A stretch of DNA of 64,000 bases from Marinobacter sp. LV10R510-11A (lineage in GTDB: Bacteria; Pseudomonadota; Gammaproteobacteria; Pseudomonadales; Oleiphilaceae), in assembly GCF_900215155.1 (NCBI RefSeq), contig NZ_LT907980.1:3658001-3722000 (forward strand). The letters run 5' to 3'. Below, one piece after another: positions 51,188 to 64,000 of the stretch. How positions within the stretch are numbered: the first letter of the stretch is position 1; every line of letters begins with the position of its first letter. Position numbers and translations under genes: made by a program. The notes below the pieces were generated by a model, which made no database searches, was not told where the DNA came from, and saw only the letters and a list, made by a program, of their open reading frames with translations.

Positions 51188-51613
51188 ATGAGCAGTTCTG
51201 CTGCAGGTTATGACCTAACGCCTTTGACCGAGGCGCAGACAGAAGAAAAAGCCGCCAGCCTGACACCCGAAGAACGCCAGGTGTTACTGGATCACGGAAC
51301 GGAGCATCCGTTCTGTGGCACTTTGCTGGATAACAAATTGGCCGGCGTTTATCACTGCCGGCTTTGTGATTTGCCTCTGTTCAGTTCAAGCGCAAAATTT
51401 GATTCCGGTACAGGCTGGCCCAGTTTTTTTCAGCCGTTTGATAAAGAGCACATCCATTACATCGAAGATACAAGCATGGGAATGGCTCGCACAGAAGCGC
51501 GCTGTCTTCGCTGTGACAGTCACCTAGGCCACGTATTTCCAGACGGGCCGCCCCCGACAGGTAAGCGCTATTGCCTGAACTCCGTTGCCCTGGTTTTCCA
51601 GGAAATGGGCTGA
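51188..51613 (+). CDS. msrB: peptide-methionine (R)-S-oxide reductase
   Basis: MsrB reduces R-methionine sulfoxide. The 141 residues show two zinc-binding CxxC pairs (CRLC and CLRC), the GTGWPSFFQPF motif, and RYCLNSVAL with the catalytic Cys. AGGAG lies before the ATG. Its 3' end abuts, on the other strand, a broken cation exchanger whose open frame runs back into msrB. Confidence 0.96.
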   Translation: MSSSAAGYDLTPLTEAQTEEKAASLTPEERQVLLDHGTEHPFCGTLLDNKLAGVYHCRLCDLPLFSSSAKFDSGTGWPSFFQPFDKEHIHYIEDTSMGMARTEARCLRCDSHLGHVFPDGPPPTGKRYCLNSVALVFQEMG

Positions 51614-51838
51614 GGCGACACCCGTAGAAAGTAAGTAGCCGGTATAAGCGACGTAAACCAGCAGACCGACGGTTAACACCAGCATCAGTGTCCAGTCCCG
51701 GTATAGCACCTCCGGGGCTACTGACATAGGCTCGATCACTGCAGTCAGGGAAGCGGCTAGTTCTGGCACCGACGTACCAATCGCCACGATCGTCAGGCCA
51801 ATGACCAGCCATATGATTGCGCCAACAGCCATTTCCAT
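51600..51838 (-). pseudogene. sodium/calcium exchanger family protein, deleted remnant
   Basis: The minus strand gives VIGLTIVAIGTSVPELAASL, an alpha-repeat signature of CaxA/YrbG-type cation antiporters, then directly EPMSVAPEVLYRDWTLMLVL with VYVAYTGYLL, pieces that lie further apart in intact proteins. The N-terminal half and the end are missing, and the frame continues into msrB antisense. A gene of about 320 residues has been cut to about 75. Confidence 0.7.
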
Positions 51839-52111
51839 AGATGAACCTCAATCAGGTTGTTTCTGAAATAGAACGCCCATGAAACCGTCGGGTGGCCAGA
51901 GGTGTAAGCACCAGAAAGGCATGGGACTAAAGTTGAGGTGATATTGCCTGTTAAGGCAGAGAGAATTTATTATTTCTGCGATAATAGCGTGCGCATTCAG
52001 AACGGACGCATACGGCAGCGCCATCTACCTTGCGACTTGCCAGCATCCGACAGATCTCTGGGCTGATCGTGGAGGGGCGAAAGGCTCAAAACTAGCTAGG
52101 GTGAACAACCA

Positions 52112-53593
52112 ATGGCCGTTAAACAGGCAGACGTAGTGCTGGTAGGTGGTGGTGTCATGAGCGCCACTCTCGGCATGATGCTAACGCAGTTGGATCCGTC
52201 CATGAAAATTGTCATGTTGGAGCGTCTTGATCACGTTGCTCATGAAAGCACCGACGGATGGAACAACGCAGGCACTGGGCACGCAGGATACTGTGAACTG
52301 AATTACACGCCGCAGACCGAAGATGGCGATGTCGCTATTGAGCGCGCGCTTCAGATCAATGCGCAATATGAGGTCTCGCTGCAGTTCTGGTCGTATCTGG
52401 TAGAGCAGGGCATGTTGCCAGAGCCCTCAAAATTTATTAACCGCACACCACACCAGAGTTTTGTCTGGGGTGAGAAAGACGTGGCGTTCCTTAAGCGCCG
52501 CCATGAGCGCATGAGTGCTCACCACCTGTTTCGTGGCATGGAGTACACGGAGTCGCCGCGGGAACTGGAAGAGTGGATGCCGCTGGTTGTTCAAGGTCGC
52601 GACCCTATGCAACGTGTTGCCGCCACCCGCATCCGTCACGGCTCCGATGTGGATTTCGGTTCCCTGACCCGGAACATGGTCGAGTACCTGCAAAGCCAAC
52701 CCAACTTCGAGCTGATGTTGAGCAGCCCGGTGCATTACATAGACCAGCGTGATAATGGCCGCTGGAAAGTCCGAGTGAAAAACCAACACACCGGTGAGCA
52801 GACCAAGCTGGAAAGCGAATTTGTTTTCTTGGGTGCGGGCGGTGGGGCACTGCCTTTGCTGCAGAAATCAGGCGTTGATGAAGCCCGTGGTTACGGTGGG
52901 TTCCCTGTTAGTGGCCAATGGCTTGTGTGTCGCAAACCAGACGTAGTAGGGCAGCACCACGCCAAGGTATATGGCAAGGCGCCCATTGGTGCACCACCTA
53001 TGTCGGTACCGCACTTGGATACCCGCATTATCAATGGCGAACCGGCTTTGCTGTTTGGCCCGTTTGCCGGCTTTACCACCCGCTTCCTCAAGCAGGGCTC
53101 TATCTTTGATCTGTTCGGCTCGGTGCGCACGACTAACCTCAAACCGATGTTGTCGGTGAGCAAAAGCAATATGGATCTCACCCGCTATCTGATCGGTGAA
53201 GTATTCCAGTCACACAGTGATCGCGTGGAAGCACTGCGCAACTTCTTCCCAGAAGCTGAAGAAGAGAACTGGGAACTGCGAAGTGCCGGCCAGCGAGTGC
53301 AGATTATCAAGCAGGCTGAAGGCGGCGGCGGGAAGCTGGAATTCGGTACCGAAATCGTGGCTTCAAAAGACGGCACTCTGGCGGCTCTGCTTGGTGCATC
53401 ACCGGGTGCATCTACGGCGGCCAGCGCAATGATCAGTGTGGTCGAGCGCTGCTTTGCGGAGAAAATAAAAACGGATGAGTGGCAGGAGCGCATGAAAACA
53501 ATGGTGCCATCCTACGGCCAATCTCTGGTGGACGATGAGGCACTGCTGACGAAAGTACGGGAAAGAACGCTCGCTACCTTGAAGCTGAGCTGA
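52112..53593 (+). CDS. mqo: malate:quinone oxidoreductase
   Basis: Mqo oxidises malate to oxaloacetate at the membrane and passes electrons to quinone. The 493-residue FAD protein shows VLVGGGVMSATLGMMLTQLD, DGWNNAGTGHAGYCELNYTP, FVWGEKDVAFLKRRHE, and FLGAGGGALPLLQKSG, with LFGPFAGFTTRFLKQGS. It lies 63 bases ahead of the ATP-grasp gene; a shared transcript is possible but there is no evident functional link. Confidence 0.97.
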   Translation: MAVKQADVVLVGGGVMSATLGMMLTQLDPSMKIVMLERLDHVAHESTDGWNNAGTGHAGYCELNYTPQTEDGDVAIERALQINAQYEVSLQFWSYLVEQGMLPEPSKFINRTPHQSFVWGEKDVAFLKRRHERMSAHHLFRGMEYTESPRELEEWMPLVVQGRDPMQRVAATRIRHGSDVDFGSLTRNMVEYLQSQPNFELMLSSPVHYIDQRDNGRWKVRVKNQHTGEQTKLESEFVFLGAGGGALPLLQKSGVDEARGYGGFPVSGQWLVCRKPDVVGQHHAKVYGKAPIGAPPMSVPHLDTRIINGEPALLFGPFAGFTTRFLKQGSIFDLFGSVRTTNLKPMLSVSKSNMDLTRYLIGEVFQSHSDRVEALRNFFPEAEEENWELRSAGQRVQIIKQAEGGGGKLEFGTEIVASKDGTLAALLGASPGASTAASAMISVVERCFAEKIKTDEWQERMKTMVPSYGQSLVDDEALLTKVRERTLATLKLS

Positions 53594-53656: not shown

Positions 53657-54889
53657 ATGAGCGAGCATAAATATAACCCTGAAAAAGGGTATATCGCCTT
53701 TCTCGGTTGGAGTCTCAACGCAGTAGAAGCCGCTGATAAATTCGATCGCCGCTACGTGGTGGTTGCACCGGACTGGGCCGAGCCCTATTGCAAAGAGCAC
53801 GATATTCCCTACGTGCCTTGGAATTTTGAACGCTTAAATGACCGCTCCGTAGAGATTGCCCAAACCCTGAAAGAAATGGGTGTGGATGTCGCTATTCCGT
53901 TGTTTGAAGAAACGGTGGAATGGGCCGGTGCGATCAACTCCGTTTTGATGGACAAGCCGAGGCTGTTCGGTCAGGCCATGTTGCTTCGCGATAAAGCACT
54001 GATGAAGCGCCGTGCGCAGCTTGGCGGCATACGCGTGGGTATATTTGAAGAAGCTCACGATAAAGGCGATGTTGTCCGCTTTTTGAAAAGAGTTAATCAA
54101 ACTCTGCTCAAGCTCGATGGCGACCCCAACGATCCCATTCATTTGAAAGCCTTCGATAAGGCCGGCTGTCTTGGGCACAGAATCATTCGCACCCCGGACG
54201 AAGTAGATTCCATTCCGGATGAAGAATTCCCGGTGCTGATGGAGTCCCACCTAGACGGCTGGGAGTTTGCGGTAGAGGCTTGGGTCCATAACGGTAAGAT
54301 CGCCTTCCTGAATATCTCCGAATACGTCACCTTGGGCTATTCTGTTTTCGTGCCGGCGACGCCAGATCTCGAAAAGTACCGGGATCAGATCCGCGGCGAA
54401 ATTGAAAAGCTGATCAAGGCCTTCGATATTGATTTCGGCTTTATTCACCCCGAATATTTCGTGACCAGCGACAGCACCATGTACTTTGGTGAGGTGGCAT
54501 ATCGGCCACCCGGATTCAAGGTTTTCGAGCTGCTTGAAACGGCTTATGGCTTCAACGCCTATCAGGGTCTGATTCTTTCGTTTGATCCCAAAACCACGCC
54601 TGAAGAAATGAAAGCCTTCTTCCCGAAAGAAGTGGTGGATGCCAAGGGTTACGCGGGTTGCTTCGGTGTGTACCCACGGCGCCGGGTTGTCAGCAAGCTG
54701 GAGATTCCGGAGGAAACCGAGAATCACGAGTATTTCGAATCCCATGAGCTGACGCCTCCGGTTGAGGAAACGGTAACCAAGCGCACGGCATTTGGTACCC
54801 ACTGGGGCCTTGTGTATTTCTTTGGTGAAGACCCTTATGTGCTGCGAGATCTCCTGAAACATCAGGAAGATTTGGATTTCTATGTATAA
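53657..54889 (+). CDS. ATP-grasp ligase of unknown substrate
   Basis: A 410-residue protein with an ATP-grasp fold. After an N-terminal domain (YIAFLGWSLNAVEAADKFDR), the central part has RDKALMKRRAQLGG (about 111-124, the NK/MK-type ATP lysine region), a LMESHLDGWEFAVEAWVHNG stretch (about 194-213) and FGEVAYRPPGFKVFELLETA (about 277-296) with the metal-binding Glu. Such enzymes make carboxylate-amine or carboxylate-thiol bonds. The ATG at 53657 is chosen over 53597. The next gene, 54 bases on, is a large papain-like protein, so the pair may make and process a peptide or amide product. That pairing role is inference. Confidence 0.82.
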   Translation: MSEHKYNPEKGYIAFLGWSLNAVEAADKFDRRYVVVAPDWAEPYCKEHDIPYVPWNFERLNDRSVEIAQTLKEMGVDVAIPLFEETVEWAGAINSVLMDKPRLFGQAMLLRDKALMKRRAQLGGIRVGIFEEAHDKGDVVRFLKRVNQTLLKLDGDPNDPIHLKAFDKAGCLGHRIIRTPDEVDSIPDEEFPVLMESHLDGWEFAVEAWVHNGKIAFLNISEYVTLGYSVFVPATPDLEKYRDQIRGEIEKLIKAFDIDFGFIHPEYFVTSDSTMYFGEVAYRPPGFKVFELLETAYGFNAYQGLILSFDPKTTPEEMKAFFPKEVVDAKGYAGCFGVYPRRRVVSKLEIPEETENHEYFESHELTPPVEETVTKRTAFGTHWGLVYFFGEDPYVLRDLLKHQEDLDFYV

Positions 54890-54943
54890 TCGTGCGATGC
54901 ACTAACAGCTATGGGGCCTGATGCAGGCCCTGAGGAACGTCGT

Positions 54944-56968
54944 TTGAACGATCACCAATCGGGCAATGAAGTGTCGGCTGTGAGCTTGGATAAGCTGGCA
55001 CAAAGGCTGGATGACTCGGTTCTGGCCTTGGAAGAAAGCCGGTCTTTTGCCAAGATCGGCAAGCTGCCGCGTGTGTTTGATCTTGTTCGTAGGATATTGA
55101 TGCGGCCAGAGGGCTGTGCGGTAATTGAAGCGCGTACAGAGCGCCTGGAGAAAGCTGGCGTTTTTGAGGGCACCGACTGGGCAGAGCCTGCCATGTTGTT
55201 GCCATCACTAACCACGGCTGCACTGCAGAGCCCGAACGCAGACACGGTGGTTATCGAGGCGCTCAGTGAGCTGCGGTTGCTGGCGGTAGTGCGCGAAGCC
55301 TACCTTCACCCCTCAGTGTCTGCCGAGCAGGCTCATAATTACCTTACACAGGTTCTTGCGATCAACCTAGGCCTGCTGTTTGGTATGACCGGCGAAGCCG
55401 AGCGTGAACAGGGCCGGCTGGCTCTGGTAAGCCAGCACGTGGTGCAGCACGTAGCCCAGCATATTGGCTACGAACACGTTATAGACAGCTTGATTGAAGA
55501 AATCTGGCGAATTTTGCAGCAACGGCCGATTCAGGTCGCCGATGTGCGCAAAATGATCACTCAAATTGCTATCTGCAGTGCCGAGCCAGAGACAGATCTC
55601 GGCAGCGCAGGGCGCGGAGCGGATCGGCTGATCTCCAGCCTATATGGCCCAACGCGAGGATGCAGCGAAGATCCCGGTGCGGTGGTTTACCAGCAGCGCC
55701 TAGAGGCTATGGATTCCCAAACGCTGCAGAATGAAGCTACGGGTTTCGCCCGCTCCATGCATGACACCGGCCTAGTATCTCCCTATCACGCGTGCTTTGT
55801 GCGTTTTATTCTGGAGAACCAGGATAACCTGCTCAGCGAAGCTTTAGGGCTTTCAAGCACTGGTCGAGATTGCCTACTTTGTTACCGTGAATTGGTGCAC
55901 GCGCTGATTACCGAAGGTGTGTTTCCCGAAACGGCCCAAGGTATTTATGGCCTTGCACTCTTGCTTGAGCGGGGCATTCTTTATCAGCCACCTTTGGCGC
56001 CTGCACTCTGGCGTCAGGCCCGGCTCAACCTGTGCCCCGAGGCCCGAGAACGTTTGCAAATTGCCTACGGCTACCAACCGCAAGCAGGCGCCTGGTTGAT
56101 CCAGGGTGTGCTGAATATGTTGGGACAGCCATTGGGTGTTGGCCAAGGGAACAACCCAACCTGCCAGTCTGCCCGCGCGTTGTCCATGTGGGCGTACAAC
56201 GATCCCGACTACCTACTGCAGATGGTCGCTTGGGCAGCCAGAGATAACGAAATCGTTATGCATTTTGAGGGGCAGCCGGTGTCTTCGGCCCACAGCCTTG
56301 GTGGCGTCGCCTCAGAAGTCACCTTTGATCTCGACCCGGTTTCGCTGGTTGTGGTGCCACATCTGGATCGTATCTACGGCGAGATGGGGCGCATGTGTAT
56401 TGGCCGTGAAGGCGATCCGCACAAATGGGTGAACCCGGAATTCCATGGCTGGTCTGCAGGGCGCGGTTTTGCCATCAATGTGGATGTGGCCACTGGTAAT
56501 CTGGATAACCTGGAAGGTTTTATCCGGCATTTCTACGCCAGCTATCACCCTCACTACAACGGCAGTCAGCCTCTCATACACCCTCAGCCTGCCGGTGTTG
56601 CGGTAACTGACAGGGCCGCACGCTTTATTGGCTGGCACGCCATAACGATTCTTCGGGCGGCGCTGGACCCGGAAGGCGAGATGCGTGTGTACTTCTACAA
56701 CCCGAACAACGACAGTGGCCAGAGCTGGGGTGACGATGTGCACGTGAACACGCAAGGCTGTGGGGAAAGGTTCGGTGAGGCCTCTCTGCCGTTTGAGCAG
56801 TTCACGTCCCGGTTATATATCTTTCACTTCGACCCGCTTGAGCATGGCGAGCCAGCGGACGTAGGGGAAGCTGAGCTGCAACGGGTGATGGAACGTGTAT
56901 ACCGAAGCTGGGGCCAAGATCGCGTACCTGCGATAGAGCTCCAAGCCGAGCCGCCACACACTGAATAG
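54944..56968 (+). CDS. large protein with papain-like cysteine protease motifs
   Basis: Counting from an ATG at 54911, a 685-residue product; I favour a TTG at 54944 (12th codon), six bases after GAGGAA, since the ATG lies in a GGGCCT/AGGCCC hairpin. Residues 1-400 are mostly helical and unrecognised. Then Gln412-GNNPT-Cys418 has exactly the six-residue Gln-to-Cys spacing of papain's oxyanion Gln and nucleophile. His576 (GWHAITILRA) and Asn597 (YFYNPNNDSGQSWG) complete a Cys-His-Asn set in the right order, with the SWG that follows papain's Asn. It follows the ATP-grasp gene on the same strand. I know of no named family for the full protein; activity is unproven. Confidence 0.72.
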   Translation: MNDHQSGNEVSAVSLDKLAQRLDDSVLALEESRSFAKIGKLPRVFDLVRRILMRPEGCAVIEARTERLEKAGVFEGTDWAEPAMLLPSLTTAALQSPNADTVVIEALSELRLLAVVREAYLHPSVSAEQAHNYLTQVLAINLGLLFGMTGEAEREQGRLALVSQHVVQHVAQHIGYEHVIDSLIEEIWRILQQRPIQVADVRKMITQIAICSAEPETDLGSAGRGADRLISSLYGPTRGCSEDPGAVVYQQRLEAMDSQTLQNEATGFARSMHDTGLVSPYHACFVRFILENQDNLLSEALGLSSTGRDCLLCYRELVHALITEGVFPETAQGIYGLALLLERGILYQPPLAPALWRQARLNLCPEARERLQIAYGYQPQAGAWLIQGVLNMLGQPLGVGQGNNPTCQSARALSMWAYNDPDYLLQMVAWAARDNEIVMHFEGQPVSSAHSLGGVASEVTFDLDPVSLVVVPHLDRIYGEMGRMCIGREGDPHKWVNPEFHGWSAGRGFAINVDVATGNLDNLEGFIRHFYASYHPHYNGSQPLIHPQPAGVAVTDRAARFIGWHAITILRAALDPEGEMRVYFYNPNNDSGQSWGDDVHVNTQGCGERFGEASLPFEQFTSRLYIFHFDPLEHGEPADVGEAELQRVMERVYRSWGQDRVPAIELQAEPPHTE

Positions 56969-58015: not shown

Positions 58016-59596
58016 TCAGCTTTTCTGCGTTTCTGGCAGCTGAGGGATAAGATTCTGCTCACGTGCCATCGAATAGGCCGCTTTGGGGCCGAGCCACAGT
58101 GTGGGCAGCAGAATCAGTGAGACCGGGATAGCTGTGATCACAATAAACTGCTGGAGCACACCAATTTGGCCGGCGCCCATGTAAAGCAGAACGCCTGCCA
58201 TACCTGCCATAGTCAGGCCCCAGAATGCCCGTACAAAGGTATTCGGCTGGTCGTGGCCAGAGCTCACAACAGCAATGGAGTAGCTCATGGAATCGCCGGT
58301 GGTTGCCACAAAAATGGTGGTCAGTACCAGAATGGCCAGGGCCATGAATGCGCCGCCCGGCAGAGCTTGGGCAACCGTAAGTGTGGCCACATCGAAGCGG
58401 AAGTTATTCAGGGCTTCTGCAAGATCAATCACGCCGGTCATCTGATAGTAAATGCCGGAGCCGCCTAGGAGAGTGAACCAGATAGTGGTGGCAATAGGCG
58501 CCATAACAGCCACCGCTAGAATCATGTCCCGAATGCTCCTGCCGCGCGAAATGCGTGCAACGAAGATCGCCATCAGTGGGGCATAGCCAATAAACCATGC
58601 AAAGAAGAACACGGTCCACCACTGCATCCACCAGCCGGGAGCGGTTTCTGCTGTCATGGTCGCCATTTCCATGAACGAGGAAACATACTGCCCCATACTC
58701 TGGAAGTAGGTGTTCGTCAGATATAGCGTTGGGCCGAAGATAAAGATAATTGCCGCTACCGCCAGCGCCAGAAACACGTTCAGCCGGCTCAGGAACTGAA
58801 TGCCACGGTGAATGCCAGAAATGGCAGACGTTACATAGATGACGGCTAGGCCAACCAGAATGGCCAATTGTGTGGCCAGACCATCGGTCAGGCCGAATAG
58901 CTCGCTCAGGCCAAAGCTCATCTGAGTAGCCAGGAAGCCAACCGGACCTACGGTGCCGGCAACTACTGCGATCACGCAGCAAGCATCAACAACACTGCCC
59001 AACCAGCCGCTCATGACGCGCTCGCCAAATACCGGGTAAAGCAGTGTGCGTGGCTGAAGTGGTTTGCCTTGCACGTAGTGAGCATGGGCCAGAACAATCG
59101 CAGCCAGAGTGCCCAAAACTGCCCAGGCCAGGAAACCCCAGTGCATGAACGATTGTGCCATGGCATTGGAAACGGCTTCAGCGGTACCAGGTTCACTCGT
59201 GTAGGCCGGTGGCGTTACAACAAAATGATAGACCGGCTCGCCGGCCGCAAAGAACACACCGCCACCCGCTAGCAGAGTACACATAATGATAGAGAGCCAG
59301 CGGAAGGTGCTCATCTCTGGCTTATCGAGGTTGCCAATCTTGGCTTTAGCTGCTGGCGTGCATGCTAGGCCTATCGCGATAAAAAACGTTGCCAATAGCA
59401 ACATCTGGAAGTAGGTGCCAAACACTTTGGCAGTCCAGGCAAAACCGTTACCAATAAGGGCGGCAACCGCGTCCACATCGAACAAAGAGAATCCGACGAA
59501 CAAAACAATGAAACCAACGCTGAGCGTAAGTAGCACAGGATCACCAAGCTGGGCTATGGAGTAATCTCCGCCTGACTTGAGATTGTTACTCTTCAT
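58016..59596 (-). CDS. BCCT-family betaine/choline/carnitine transporter
   Basis: About 526 residues with twelve hydrophobic helices. Seen are GGGVFFAAGEPVYHFVVTPP (family signature), AMAQSFMHWGFLAWAVLG, and the Trp-rich GWWMQWWTVFFFAWFIGYAP segment of the substrate site, then FVARISRGRSIRDMI. The transporter should bring in a quaternary amine or related osmolyte with Na+ or H+. The ATG at 59596 has AAGG nine bases before it; the longer frame to 59896 runs into non-homologous sequence. Specific substrate cannot be read. Confidence 0.92.
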   Translation of the reverse strand: MKSNNLKSGGDYSIAQLGDPVLLTLSVGFIVLFVGFSLFDVDAVAALIGNGFAWTAKVFGTYFQMLLLATFFIAIGLACTPAAKAKIGNLDKPEMSTFRWLSIIMCTLLAGGGVFFAAGEPVYHFVVTPPAYTSEPGTAEAVSNAMAQSFMHWGFLAWAVLGTLAAIVLAHAHYVQGKPLQPRTLLYPVFGERVMSGWLGSVVDACCVIAVVAGTVGPVGFLATQMSFGLSELFGLTDGLATQLAILVGLAVIYVTSAISGIHRGIQFLSRLNVFLALAVAAIIFIFGPTLYLTNTYFQSMGQYVSSFMEMATMTAETAPGWWMQWWTVFFFAWFIGYAPLMAIFVARISRGRSIRDMILAVAVMAPIATTIWFTLLGGSGIYYQMTGVIDLAEALNNFRFDVATLTVAQALPGGAFMALAILVLTTIFVATTGDSMSYSIAVVSSGHDQPNTFVRAFWGLTMAGMAGVLLYMGAGQIGVLQQFIVITAIPVSLILLPTLWLGPKAAYSMAREQNLIPQLPETQKS

Positions 59597-59963
59597 AAAC
59601 ATTAACCTTTGTGTATAGACACCACGAAACAAAGCGCGGGACTTTGCCACAAAAGTGACACTAATACCAACGTCGAAGCCCGCTGCGAAATACGGAGAGC
59701 GTGGCGACCGAGTGGCAGGTACGGCCACAAGCGCTTTGGACTGCAGGTAATAGATTATATAATAGCTACTAATTTCAGGTTTCGAAAAGGAATGCCAAGC
59801 TTGATCTCCAGGCCCATAGTGCCCAGCTTTTTCTCCAGTGCCCTTAATTTTGTGTTGGGCCGTCTCAAGGGCGCGGGTTGCGGGGTATCCCACCATGTCA
59901 CCGTAGTTGTCCAGTTGGCGATTTCGCCTAATTCATCACCTGGTGGGTGGTATGAGAAACGCA

Positions 59964-60846
59964 ATGGCTCATCTCATCGAGCAAATGGCCTACGTAGGCC
60001 AAACCCCGTGGCATGGCCTGGGGAGCGAACTGACTTCAAATCAGCCACTGGATGTCTGGGCTAAACAAGCCGGTCTGGATTGGCAGATTGAAGAAAGCCC
60101 TGTGCGGTTCGTTACTAATGCCTCCGGTCACCTCGGAGAGATATTGGCGTATCCCGATAGCAAGGTGCTTTATCGGTCGGATACAAGGGCACCGCTGTCG
60201 GTAGTCGGTAACCGTTTCAAGGTAGTCCAGCCCGAGGAAATTCTGGAGTTCTACCGGGATTTGACCGAGGTATCCGGTTTCGAGCTCGAAACGGCAGGTG
60301 TTCTGAAAGGTGGCCGGAAAATGTGGGCGCTGGCCCGTACTGGTCAATCTGGCATGCTCAAGGGCAACGATCAAACCAACGCCTACGTGCTGCTGGCCAC
60401 TGCCTGTGACGGCACCATGGCAACGACCGCTCAATTCACCAGTATCCGTGTGGTGTGCAACAACACCCTTGCTGTGGCGCTAAAGGATGCCACTGCTACT
60501 GCGGTCAAGGTGAAACACAACACAGCCTTCGATGCAGACCTGGTGAAGAAGCAGCTCGGCATATCCGTTTCCGCCTGGGACGATTTCATATATCGCCTCA
60601 AGACTCTGAGTGAGCGCAAGGTTAAAAGCACTGAGGCCCGCAACTACTTCCTGAAAGTGTTCACGGACGATGTGAAAGAGGGTGTGGGTAAAACCAACGA
60701 GCGGTCCATGGCTAAAGCCCTGGGTCTGTATGAAGGCGAGGGCATGGGCGCCGCTTTGGCGTCATCGGGTGGACTCTGCTTGGTTTGGAACCGGCGCTGC
60801 CGTTAAGAACCGGGCGCTCGAACAGGCCATGTCCCTCGTTGCTTAG
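59964..60846 (+). pseudogene. DUF932 plasmid/phage-type protein, internally deleted
   Basis: The protein starts MAHLIEQMAYVGQTPWHGLG and follows the DUF932 (TIGR03299) family through FTSIRVVCNNTLAVAL, RSMAKALGLYEGEGMGAALA. At about 60768 some 30 codons are missing and the frame shifts; the proper C-terminus (DSAWFGTGAAVKNRALEQAM) continues in the +1 frame to a TAG at 60844-60846. Family members occur on plasmids and integrative elements beside YqaJ-type genes, as here. Confidence 0.8.
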
Positions 60847-61866: not shown

Positions 61867-64000
61867 TCAAAGATGCCCTAAAGCGGCTTGAACATCATCA
61901 AAACGTCGTACCCAAGGCTTTGCCTCTGTCAAAGTCGGTGGCAGTCGCTCTAGTGTGGCCCGAGCTTCCTGATAGCTCGTAAAACTGCCGTAGATAACGG
62001 AATACCAAGGCAAACCTCGACGCGAAGTACGCACATAAGCTGCCGTGTGTTTTATTTTATGACGCTCAATGTACTGCTTTATAGCTACCTCCGAACTGGC
62101 CGCTATCAATTGAACAGTAAAATAGTCAGAGGGTTGATCTCGTACCCAAGATTCCGTCCGAAAATAAGTTTGATCGTACCGTGCTGACTCCTCAGCATCC
62201 AAAGGACCTGAACGACTATCGCTTTGTCTGCCATCCGGCATTATTATAAAATCCACTCCGCTGATAAACGAGCCATCGCCCGAAACGGTGAGTATGTGCA
62301 CGCCGGTATCTGTCAGCCCTAAACGTCGTAACTGCTGAGGTGAGATCCTTAGCCAGTATTCACCCGCTACCACTTGAGGGACTATGTAAAAGCCGTCCCA
62401 GCTACTTGTTGTTTCACCCACTACTTCATTTTTATCGTTTAATAGTTCCAACTCGAGGTCGCCTATCCCTCGCTCGACGCCATTCTCCAGCAAGTAAACG
62501 GTGCCATCAATTTCCGTAGTCAGCCTCACGGGGAACTCGAGTTTGGCCACCGTGCCGGGCCGCGGCACCAGGTTGAGCCCGGGAAGCTGAGGCGACCACT
62601 GAGGGTCCTCCAGAGTCGACACATCCACCCCGATGTCGACGTACCGTTTAACGGGGAGATGATTAATATGAGCGACGCCCGCAGCGTTCGTCCGCGCCTT
62701 GTGCCGGGCGCCGTTGACCGTGAAACCGGCACCGGAAACAGGCAGCTCATGGTCATCCATGACGCCGTTATTGTTGTCATCCAGAAACATCTGTACCGAA
62801 GCGGCGCCGCTGTTGGCCATTGGCCGAGCGTCGAATAGCCAGTCTGCTTGTCGCGGATCTCGCCCCATGGCAACAAACAGCTGGGCGCCTATCGCAATCT
62901 CTCCCGTGTCAACATAGCTGGCATTAACACCCAGCCCATAACGCCCCAGACTCTTTGTGAAACCGCCAGTATAGCGGGTTTGCGGTGAAGCAAAGGTATG
63001 TGCCACTCCGAAGGTCATGCGGTAGCCTTTACCCAGAGGCTTGTCCGCCGTGAACGCCAGCGCTGAAATATCGCTCTTAGCGCCCAGAGTGTAATTCAGT
63101 TGGCTGCGGAAACTCATGTCGCGAACCCGGCGACTGATGCGTAGCGTACCCAGTGTATGTTCAGTATCCCCGGATGCCCGCCAGTTCAGCGTGTTGGTAA
63201 GGGCAGTACGGTAGAGGTATGCGGATACCCGTGCGCTGACATCCATATTGGCAACGCCGGATTCCCGCTCGTCTCGCCTTGCCTCAACGGTCACCGGTAA
63301 ACTTGAATGCTCCCCCACCGGAATGGAACCGCTAAGCCTAAGCTCATCCCGAGTGCGCACAGGGTCGCTATAGGCGGGAAACACGTCGCTGGCGAAATCG
63401 TTCAAGTGTATTCGGCTTGCGTCCACCGCTACTCCGCCGACACGGGTTTTCAGCCCGAGATCGGCAAGCGAACCACCGTCCTCGGACTGGACGAAATCGC
63501 CGCTGATGCTCATGGATTGCCAGAACGTGCGCAGCCCCAGAGTGGTGTACTGCTTTTCGGTATCATCTACCGGCGCACGGATGAATCCAGCGGATGCCGA
63601 AAGGTAACGGGAAAGGCCAAAGTCGAACTGAGCGACGGACCGGGGCTGTCCTTCATCGTCGCGATGTTCGGTAAGGCTGTACTGGAACTCGCCGGGGCGC
63701 ACCATGGATTGGGCCAGAGAGAAACTGTATTGTTCCACCCGGGTCTGCCCCAGAGGCCCATTGAAGATCAACTGAAATTCATTACGGCCATAACTCAGGG
63801 GCTGATCCTCAAACCGATACCGGCCCTCAGAGTCGGCTAGTTGAAAGCCTACAAGGGCATCGTTGTAATAAAGCTCCACGTCCCAGCCAGGGGGCAGATC
63901 ACCTTCAAAGACCTGCCGGTCAAAGCTGGTAGGTTGCGTCAACGGGCGATTGCTTAACGTTACCCCTTCACCGCTACTGCCTCGAGTAACATTGTTGACA
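61867..64000 (-). CDS. outer-membrane usher-like protein with C-terminal SPOR domain, 5' partial
   Basis: The frame stays open to the right edge of the window, so the N-terminus is missing; at least 710 residues are encoded here. The first part (GWDVELYYNDALVGFQLADS, FEDQPLSYGRNEFQLIFNGP) and a long beta-rich, Gly/Arg/Tyr-patterned region resemble fimbrial usher-type outer-membrane barrels. Near 62750-62790 lies a DxNNNGVxDDHE calcium-binding-like repeat in an SdrD-B-like domain. The last 80 residues (FTVQLIAASSEVAIKQYIER and YSVIYGSFTSYQEARATL) form a SPOR domain, which binds denuded peptidoglycan. The combination suggests a surface-fibre export or envelope protein. Confidence 0.7.
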   Translation of the reverse strand, partial: VNNVTRGSSGEGVTLSNRPLTQPTSFDRQVFEGDLPPGWDVELYYNDALVGFQLADSEGRYRFEDQPLSYGRNEFQLIFNGPLGQTRVEQYSFSLAQSMVRPGEFQYSLTEHRDDEGQPRSVAQFDFGLSRYLSASAGFIRAPVDDTEKQYTTLGLRTFWQSMSISGDFVQSEDGGSLADLGLKTRVGGVAVDASRIHLNDFASDVFPAYSDPVRTRDELRLSGSIPVGEHSSLPVTVEARRDERESGVANMDVSARVSAYLYRTALTNTLNWRASGDTEHTLGTLRISRRVRDMSFRSQLNYTLGAKSDISALAFTADKPLGKGYRMTFGVAHTFASPQTRYTGGFTKSLGRYGLGVNASYVDTGEIAIGAQLFVAMGRDPRQADWLFDARPMANSGAASVQMFLDDNNNGVMDDHELPVSGAGFTVNGARHKARTNAAGVAHINHLPVKRYVDIGVDVSTLEDPQWSPQLPGLNLVPRPGTVAKLEFPVRLTTEIDGTVYLLENGVERGIGDLELELLNDKNEVVGETTSSWDGFYIVPQVVAGEYWLRISPQQLRRLGLTDTGVHILTVSGDGSFISGVDFIIMPDGRQSDSRSGPLDAEESARYDQTYFRTESWVRDQPSDYFTVQLIAASSEVAIKQYIERHKIKHTAAYVRTSRRGLPWYSVIYGSFTSYQEARATLERLPPTLTEAKPWVRRFDDVQAALGHL

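Follow-up and report, generated by a model that had tools for sequence, protein, structure and literature searches.

What does a pair of adjacent genes encoding an ATP-grasp ligase and a papain-like protein do, when it recurs as a unit but corresponds to no named system in the literature searched? The question is raised by Marinobacter sp. LV10R510-11A, in which the window analysed here (a stretch of 64,000 nucleotides, positions 3,658,001 to 3,722,000 of contig NZ_LT907980.1) carries such a pair (Table 1). The first-pass annotation of this DNA had proposed a two-gene unit of ligase and papain-like protein outside any named system, and the current study supports this proposal, the unit being conserved: ligase and partner are an obligate, closely coupled unit in the genomes sampled. 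Our best reading, to which we assign a probability of roughly 45%, is that of a module of salt-adapted ectoine producers which makes and breaks, or makes and trims, an amide bond.

Both open reading frames (ORFs) described in that annotation are present on the same strand. The partner would comprise 685 residues if read from ATG 54911 and 674 residues if read from TTG 54944, and its gene probably begins at the latter, since a GAGGA sequence lies 7 bases 5' of this codon and since, among the best 120 homologues listed, 674 residues is the commonest length and the start matches TTG 54944. The gap of about 54 bases previously given between the genes is correct for TTG 54944 but not for ATG 54911, the start used for numbering residues, which leaves 21 bases; two starts had been mixed. 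Partner residues are numbered throughout in the 685-residue count from ATG 54911 and, by this count, inspection of the codons placed Gln412, Cys418, His576 and Asn597 exactly where they had been reported.

Table 1. Features of the ligase and partner genes (window coordinates; partner residues in the 685-residue count)
Feature	Position	Strand	Basis
ATP-grasp, L-amino-acid-ligase-type carboxylate-amine ligase, 410 residues	53657..54889	+	ORF calling, homology, model
Ligase Lys164, invariant (33/33)	54146..54148	+	alignment
Ligase His264, Glu266, Glu279, Arg283 (H-x-E ... E-x-A-x-R), invariant (33/33)	54446..54505	+	alignment
GAGGA, likely ribosome-binding site of TTG 54944	54932..54936	+	
Partner protein: helical N-terminal domain and papain-like C-terminal cysteine enzyme	54944..56968	+	
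All-helical N-terminal domain, approximately residues 26-404	54986..56122	+	model
Papain-like domain, approximately residues 405-642	56123..56836	+	model
Gln412, oxyanion-hole position by papain analogy	56144..56146	+	alignment
Cys418, presumed nucleophile, first residue of a helix	56162..56164	+	alignment, model
His576, within a strand	56636..56638	+	alignment, model
Asn597, directly after a strand	56699..56701	+	alignment, model

Concerning the ligase, its sequence and model suggest that this protein probably forms an amide bond between two molecules. The model displays an ATP-grasp fold along its whole length (pLDDT 80.9; residues 150-155 and 159-169 are poorly modelled), and the closest folds among the best 50 structural matches are dipeptide-forming L-amino-acid ligases, together with purine-pathway ATP-grasps. 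No RimK- or tubulin tyrosine ligase-type chain stands among these 50, an absence which excludes nothing. Pfam ATP-grasp_4 scores 21.1 bits against the window ligase (gathering score 27), and many listed homologues carry PF13535. Lys164 is, we assume, the probable ATP-binding lysine, and the H-x-E ... E-x-A-x-R residues align with H-x-E and E-x-[AG]-x-R of BL00235 and RizA; K164, E266, E279 and R283 presumably represent the catalytic lysine, two glutamates and arginine expected of L-amino-acid ligases.

The partner is probably an active-looking papain-like protein that cuts or processes an amide bond. Its papain-like residue order, noted in the first-pass annotation, is present and invariant: Gln412, Cys418, His576 and Asn597 are identical in 47 aligned sequences (query included) down to 48% identity, while the pattern Q-x5-C ... 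H-x20-N was found in all 114 distinct proteins of the family that have about 600 or more aligned residues (cut-off 560), and a check on the conservation of Cys418 revealed no variation in either set. Calpain cores head the structural matches listed for the model, and the helical domain of some 380 residues weakly matches helical-repeat proteins. Sequence searches of Pfam, NCBIfam and PDB matched the partner to no named peptidase family, and it is therefore filed in none. A named family was also rejected for its relatives, a scan of 47 of which gave only stray Pfam matches, each confined to between one and three members (best E 0.0022), as was a solved PDB relative, the family profile having matched nothing beyond designed helical bundles and two entries for thioredoxin reductase (E 0.3-1.6). 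By eye, no signal peptide was seen in the partner.

The coupling of the two families is evident at several scales. Of 299 genomes sampled evenly across the phylum, eight have the partner, and the same eight are those with ligase orthologues, two weak ATP-grasp matches (G296, 34% over 59 residues; G197, 28% over 119) being excluded as orthologues. In an order sample, to which seven of these eight carriers also belong, both families occur in the same 40 of 293 genomes and no genome has only one (thresholds E 1e-50 for the ligase and 1e-20 for the partner); neither gene was found in G487 or G525, which belong to the same genus as the window. Another class of the phylum yielded the ligase in 3 of 337 genomes (G016, G626 and G701), each with an adjacent same-strand partner. 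Among 80 named loci found via the partner, 73 also encode an adjacent full ligase; the other seven are L008, with a partial ligase match, L028, near a contig end, and L009, L010, L011, L042 and L056, where no ligase was seen beside the partner, L010 seemingly being G506, in which the ligase lies elsewhere. The survey of gene neighbours suggested in the first-pass annotation thus finds the two genes together and not mostly apart.

The 52 ligase genes of the 40 order genomes comprise 33 with a same-strand partner downstream, two with the partner upstream, five in divergent orientation and 12 not seen beside a partner, and 16 of the 56 partner genes stand alone; these solo counts are upper bounds, as at most three or four partner candidates were scored per genome (the ligase on G070:C12, counted as solo, stands beside a divergent partner in L130). 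Both genes are present in G449, G468, G506 and G550 although no adjacent copies were seen in these four genomes, a finding which argues for function over hitch-hiking. Distance matrices of ligase and partner correlate at r 0.915 over 108 distinct adjacent pairs, a value which includes shared phylogeny, the best of 1000 permutations reaching 0.26. The Marinobacter genome itself contains a second, divergent pair (C1:1007971-1011490; L090:7969-13188), whose ligase and partner are 75% and 49% identical and whose partner gene is immediately followed by a SelO-family gene (PF02696), and a broken partner copy with matches scattered over pieces (C1:1895152-1896556; L092:8280-9569), three fragment rows of which were left out of the adjacency counts.

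Among the best 120 matches listed, named ligase relatives are found in Halomonas, Alkalilimnicola and Arhodomonas (85-88% identical to the window ligase) and, among the best 120 listed for the G016 orthologue, in Methylohalobius, Aquisalimonas, Roseovarius, Albimonas and the actinobacterial Lolliginicoccus (about 80%). The isolate names under which the ligase is listed therefore cover at least two phyla, Pseudomonadota and Actinomycetota (Lolliginicoccus). A single ligase match was on a plasmid, a 1.8-Mb Halomonas record.

Which chemistry might such a unit serve? Ectoine synthase, EctC (NF009806), was detected in 152 of the 293 order genomes, namely in all 40 with the pair and in 112 of 253 without it (Fisher P 2e-13 by genome, 2e-5 by genus), and the three carriers of the other class bring the count to 43 of 43 pair genomes. 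EctA exceeds its cut-off in 41 of 41 pair genomes tested (G016 included) and EctB in 40 of 41, the exception being G562. Eleven other genomes examined in the family of G016 are without the ligase, and three of them have EctC over cut-off. This association hints at undescribed salt-adaptation chemistry; it may also represent shared habitat only.

Physical linkage was observed in 5 of the 40 pair genomes, from five families, against approximately 0.09 cases expected under random gene placement: EctC-ligase-partner in G353, ligase-partner-EctC in G300 (gaps of -8 and +1 bases by ORF calling), EctC-ligase in G449, a divergent EctC in G539 and an EctC about 2 kb away in G362. The pair is not regularly part of the ect cluster, as no EctC was seen near the ligase gene in the other 35; these proximity counts are lower bounds, taken one contig at a time and from listed EctC matches only. 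In a tree of 27 EctC proteins, four of the five ligase-near proteins fall in a nine-member clade whose genes all lie away from ectAB, while the fifth groups with ectABC-type EctC. The starred branches force at least two events, and among these 27 proteins the ligase-linked label is not clustered beyond chance; the linked L194 and L202 sit on long branches, several forks are poorly supported and the L202 EctC is cut by a contig end. In the Marinobacter genome, ectA-ectB (C1:2988397-2990240) has no adjacent ectC and is accompanied by an ORF that looks aspartokinase-like by eye; the only ectC found (C1:3108954-3109337) lies some 119 kb away and belongs to the clade found near ligase genes elsewhere.

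In the reading we favour, the ATP-grasp protein would activate a carboxylate, most likely that of an amino acid, by converting it to an acyl phosphate, and would then join it to an amine in the manner of L-amino-acid ligases. The papain-like domain (Cys418/His576/Asn597, with Gln412) would attack the amide of the same product via a thioester, which the partner would then hydrolyse or transfer. We infer that both proteins are catalytically active and act on one product, probably a small molecule, such that together they would determine how much of an amide-linked compound is present or which final form it takes; the module may be of importance under salt and would serve salt-adapted bacteria that also produce ectoine.

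The principal rival, which we regard as unlikely, is a protein modification cycle akin to RimK/RimB or Rlo, in which the partner, guided by its helical domain, would remove an amino acid that the ligase had attached to a protein or peptide; tubulin tyrosine ligase and vasohibin constitute a comparable add-and-remove cycle. The helical-repeat likeness of that domain would suit such a role, as would the unusual conservation of the ligase, which diverges by at most 29% over 108 pairs while the partner reaches 54%, as if the ligase had to bind a conserved macromolecule. Against this, the ligase folds listed as closest are those of small-molecule L-amino-acid ligases and purine-pathway ATP-grasps, and the gene clusters shown contain no conserved candidate substrate that turns up repeatedly next to the pair. 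It is somewhat unlikely, but would be compatible with the other readings, that the pair is real and its ectoine link reflects a shared salt habitat that says nothing of the chemistry. Many named carriers belong to genera which we take to be marine, saline or halophilic (bins named Azoarcus and Pseudonocardia are not obviously so), and the 112 pair-free genomes with EctC point the same way, although the proximity of EctC in five families is well above simple random expectation.

A more specific proposal, that the pair, occasionally with an EctC encoded apart from ectAB, forms an undescribed pathway to an amide-linked or cyclised compatible solute, derived from a precursor such as diaminobutyrate, glutamine or a polyamine, which the ligase would build and the cysteine enzyme would trim or recycle with salinity, appears doubtful. 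Quite unlikely is the narrower variant of a second, ectoine-related solute, in which the ligase would acylate an amine such as 2,4-diaminobutyrate, the cysteine enzyme would trim or transfer and EctC would cyclise. The linkage in five families, once as a tight ligase-partner-EctC run, and the placement of four linked EctC proteins in the clade encoded apart from ectAB are consistent with it, as is the report that EctC uses other substrates, for example glutamine, at low efficiency (PMC5924519, in the portion available). However, the linked EctC is the only one found in G300 (75% complete), G362 and G539 and hence presumably serves ordinary ectoine synthesis with ectAB elsewhere, and both the 35 genomes without visible linkage and the lack of clustering in the tree weigh against this variant. 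Polyamine conjugation and release, similar to glutathionylspermidine synthetase/amidase, is very unlikely. It would accord with the PotF/PotD-like ABC operons directly upstream of partner-family genes in two loci of one genus (L126:8280-14458 and L129:3941-9870) and of a whole pair in L204 (L204:7630-15253), two families in all; but these are three loci only, their binding proteins do not reach the curated cut-offs for PotF/PotD (L126 and L129 score 420 and 415 of 636 bits; L204, the weakest, only 92 of 582), a sugar-type ABC operon takes this position in L213 (below cut-off) and, as a clustered relative, in L182, and the domain search matched neither GSP_synth nor CHAP in ligase or partner.

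Other surroundings vary. Solo partners lie near GCS2-like and AstE/AspA-like genes in L125:6413-11868, L186:8025-13841 and L188, these calls being Pfam-tested in L125 (AstE just below cut-off) and made by clustering in L186 and L188; the L125 partner directly follows a Memo-family gene. Together with the ABC operons, these contexts hint at a link to the metabolism of amides or amines without singling out any one substrate. A histone-deacetylase-family gene (PF00850), which could act on acetylated amines, occurs near the ligase in L121:5591-6709, L128:12711-13811 and L195:10434-11573 (tested in L121 and L195, by clustering in L128).

In the window, malate:quinone oxidoreductase (Mqo; 52112-53593) ends 63 bases 5' of the ligase. 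Mqo was rejected as a pathway gene, as it lies within 1.5 kb in 51 of the 80 named loci but in only 2 of 57 other loci examined; an Mqo-like gene also occurs near the second ligase in L198 and, in L090, 3.3 kb from the partner. The stretch 51381-51851 (minus strand), flanked by the MsrB-like and Mqo genes, contains only short overlapping ORFs where L181 encodes a 341-residue exchanger-like membrane protein (of a cluster of 52 loci), and the window copy of this gene looks broken. A BCCT-type betaine/choline transporter gene, of an osmolyte uptake family (58016-59896, minus strand), lies 1 kb behind the pair, from which it is separated by a CheW/response-regulator gene; BCCT-type genes occur within 6 kb in 12 of 137 other loci examined. 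Further along are genes for a DUF932 protein (59907-60806, plus strand) and a 691-residue protein with SPOR and SdrD-B-like domains (61867-63942, minus strand).

A closely coupled unit of this kind, whose ligase occurs in at least two phyla and whose partner the domain libraries searched do not recognise, points to a missing pathway. If the unit makes or recycles a salt-related amide, it would extend the osmolyte chemistry that gives Halomonas its industrial use, and it would offer a testable handle on the function of EctC proteins outside the ect cluster.

Full-text literature searches, to which subscription journals are mostly external, returned no description of the pair, the text of a Halomonas elongata salt paper (PMC9006882) contained none of the terms looked for, and anti-phage defence was rejected, as PADLOC matched neither ligase, partner nor two paralogues. 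Of the known systems, Rlo (PMC12239564, in the sections available) and RimK/RimB resemble the pair in combining a cytosolic ATP-grasp enzyme with a protease partner, in the case of Rlo tied to osmotic stress. RloABC and RimK/RimB differ in their RimK-like ligase, retropepsin and inactive membrane transglutaminase and in a link to hypo-osmotic stress, not salt; the protease-like member of our pair is papain-like, not a retropepsin. The NAGGN operon PA3459-PA3461 (asnO-ngg-peptidase), according to the excerpts of PMC8070244, makes an amide-bond solute under osmotic stress and includes a peptidase gene, but employs an asparagine synthase, a GNAT-type Ngg enzyme and a glutamyl aminopeptidase, and neither asnO, ngg nor the aminopeptidase was among the pair and window neighbours scanned. 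Solitary EctC proteins, whose role is described as unresolved in the available portion of PMC5924519, resemble the ligase-near EctC encoded apart from ectAB; the genomes with these ligase-near proteins do have ectAB elsewhere, however, and that portion mentions no ATP-grasp or cysteine-enzyme neighbour. The L-amino-acid ligases BL00235, BacD (YwfE) and RizA have the folds closest to the window ligase among those listed, but share 12-17% identity with it in the alignments of that search, and the window ligase is distinguished by its papain-like partner and its ATP-grasp_4 score below cut-off. With the papain- and calpain-like cysteine peptidases of clan CA the partner shares the Gln-Cys-His-Asn order, a cysteine at a helix start and calpain cores as top structural matches, while it differs in belonging to no named family, in the large helical domain in front and in the apparent lack of a signal peptide. 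In glutathionylspermidine synthetase/amidase, an ATP-grasp ligase and a papain-like amidase make and break one amide; there the two activities, from other subfamilies, reside in one fused chain, whereas here they would be divided between two genes.
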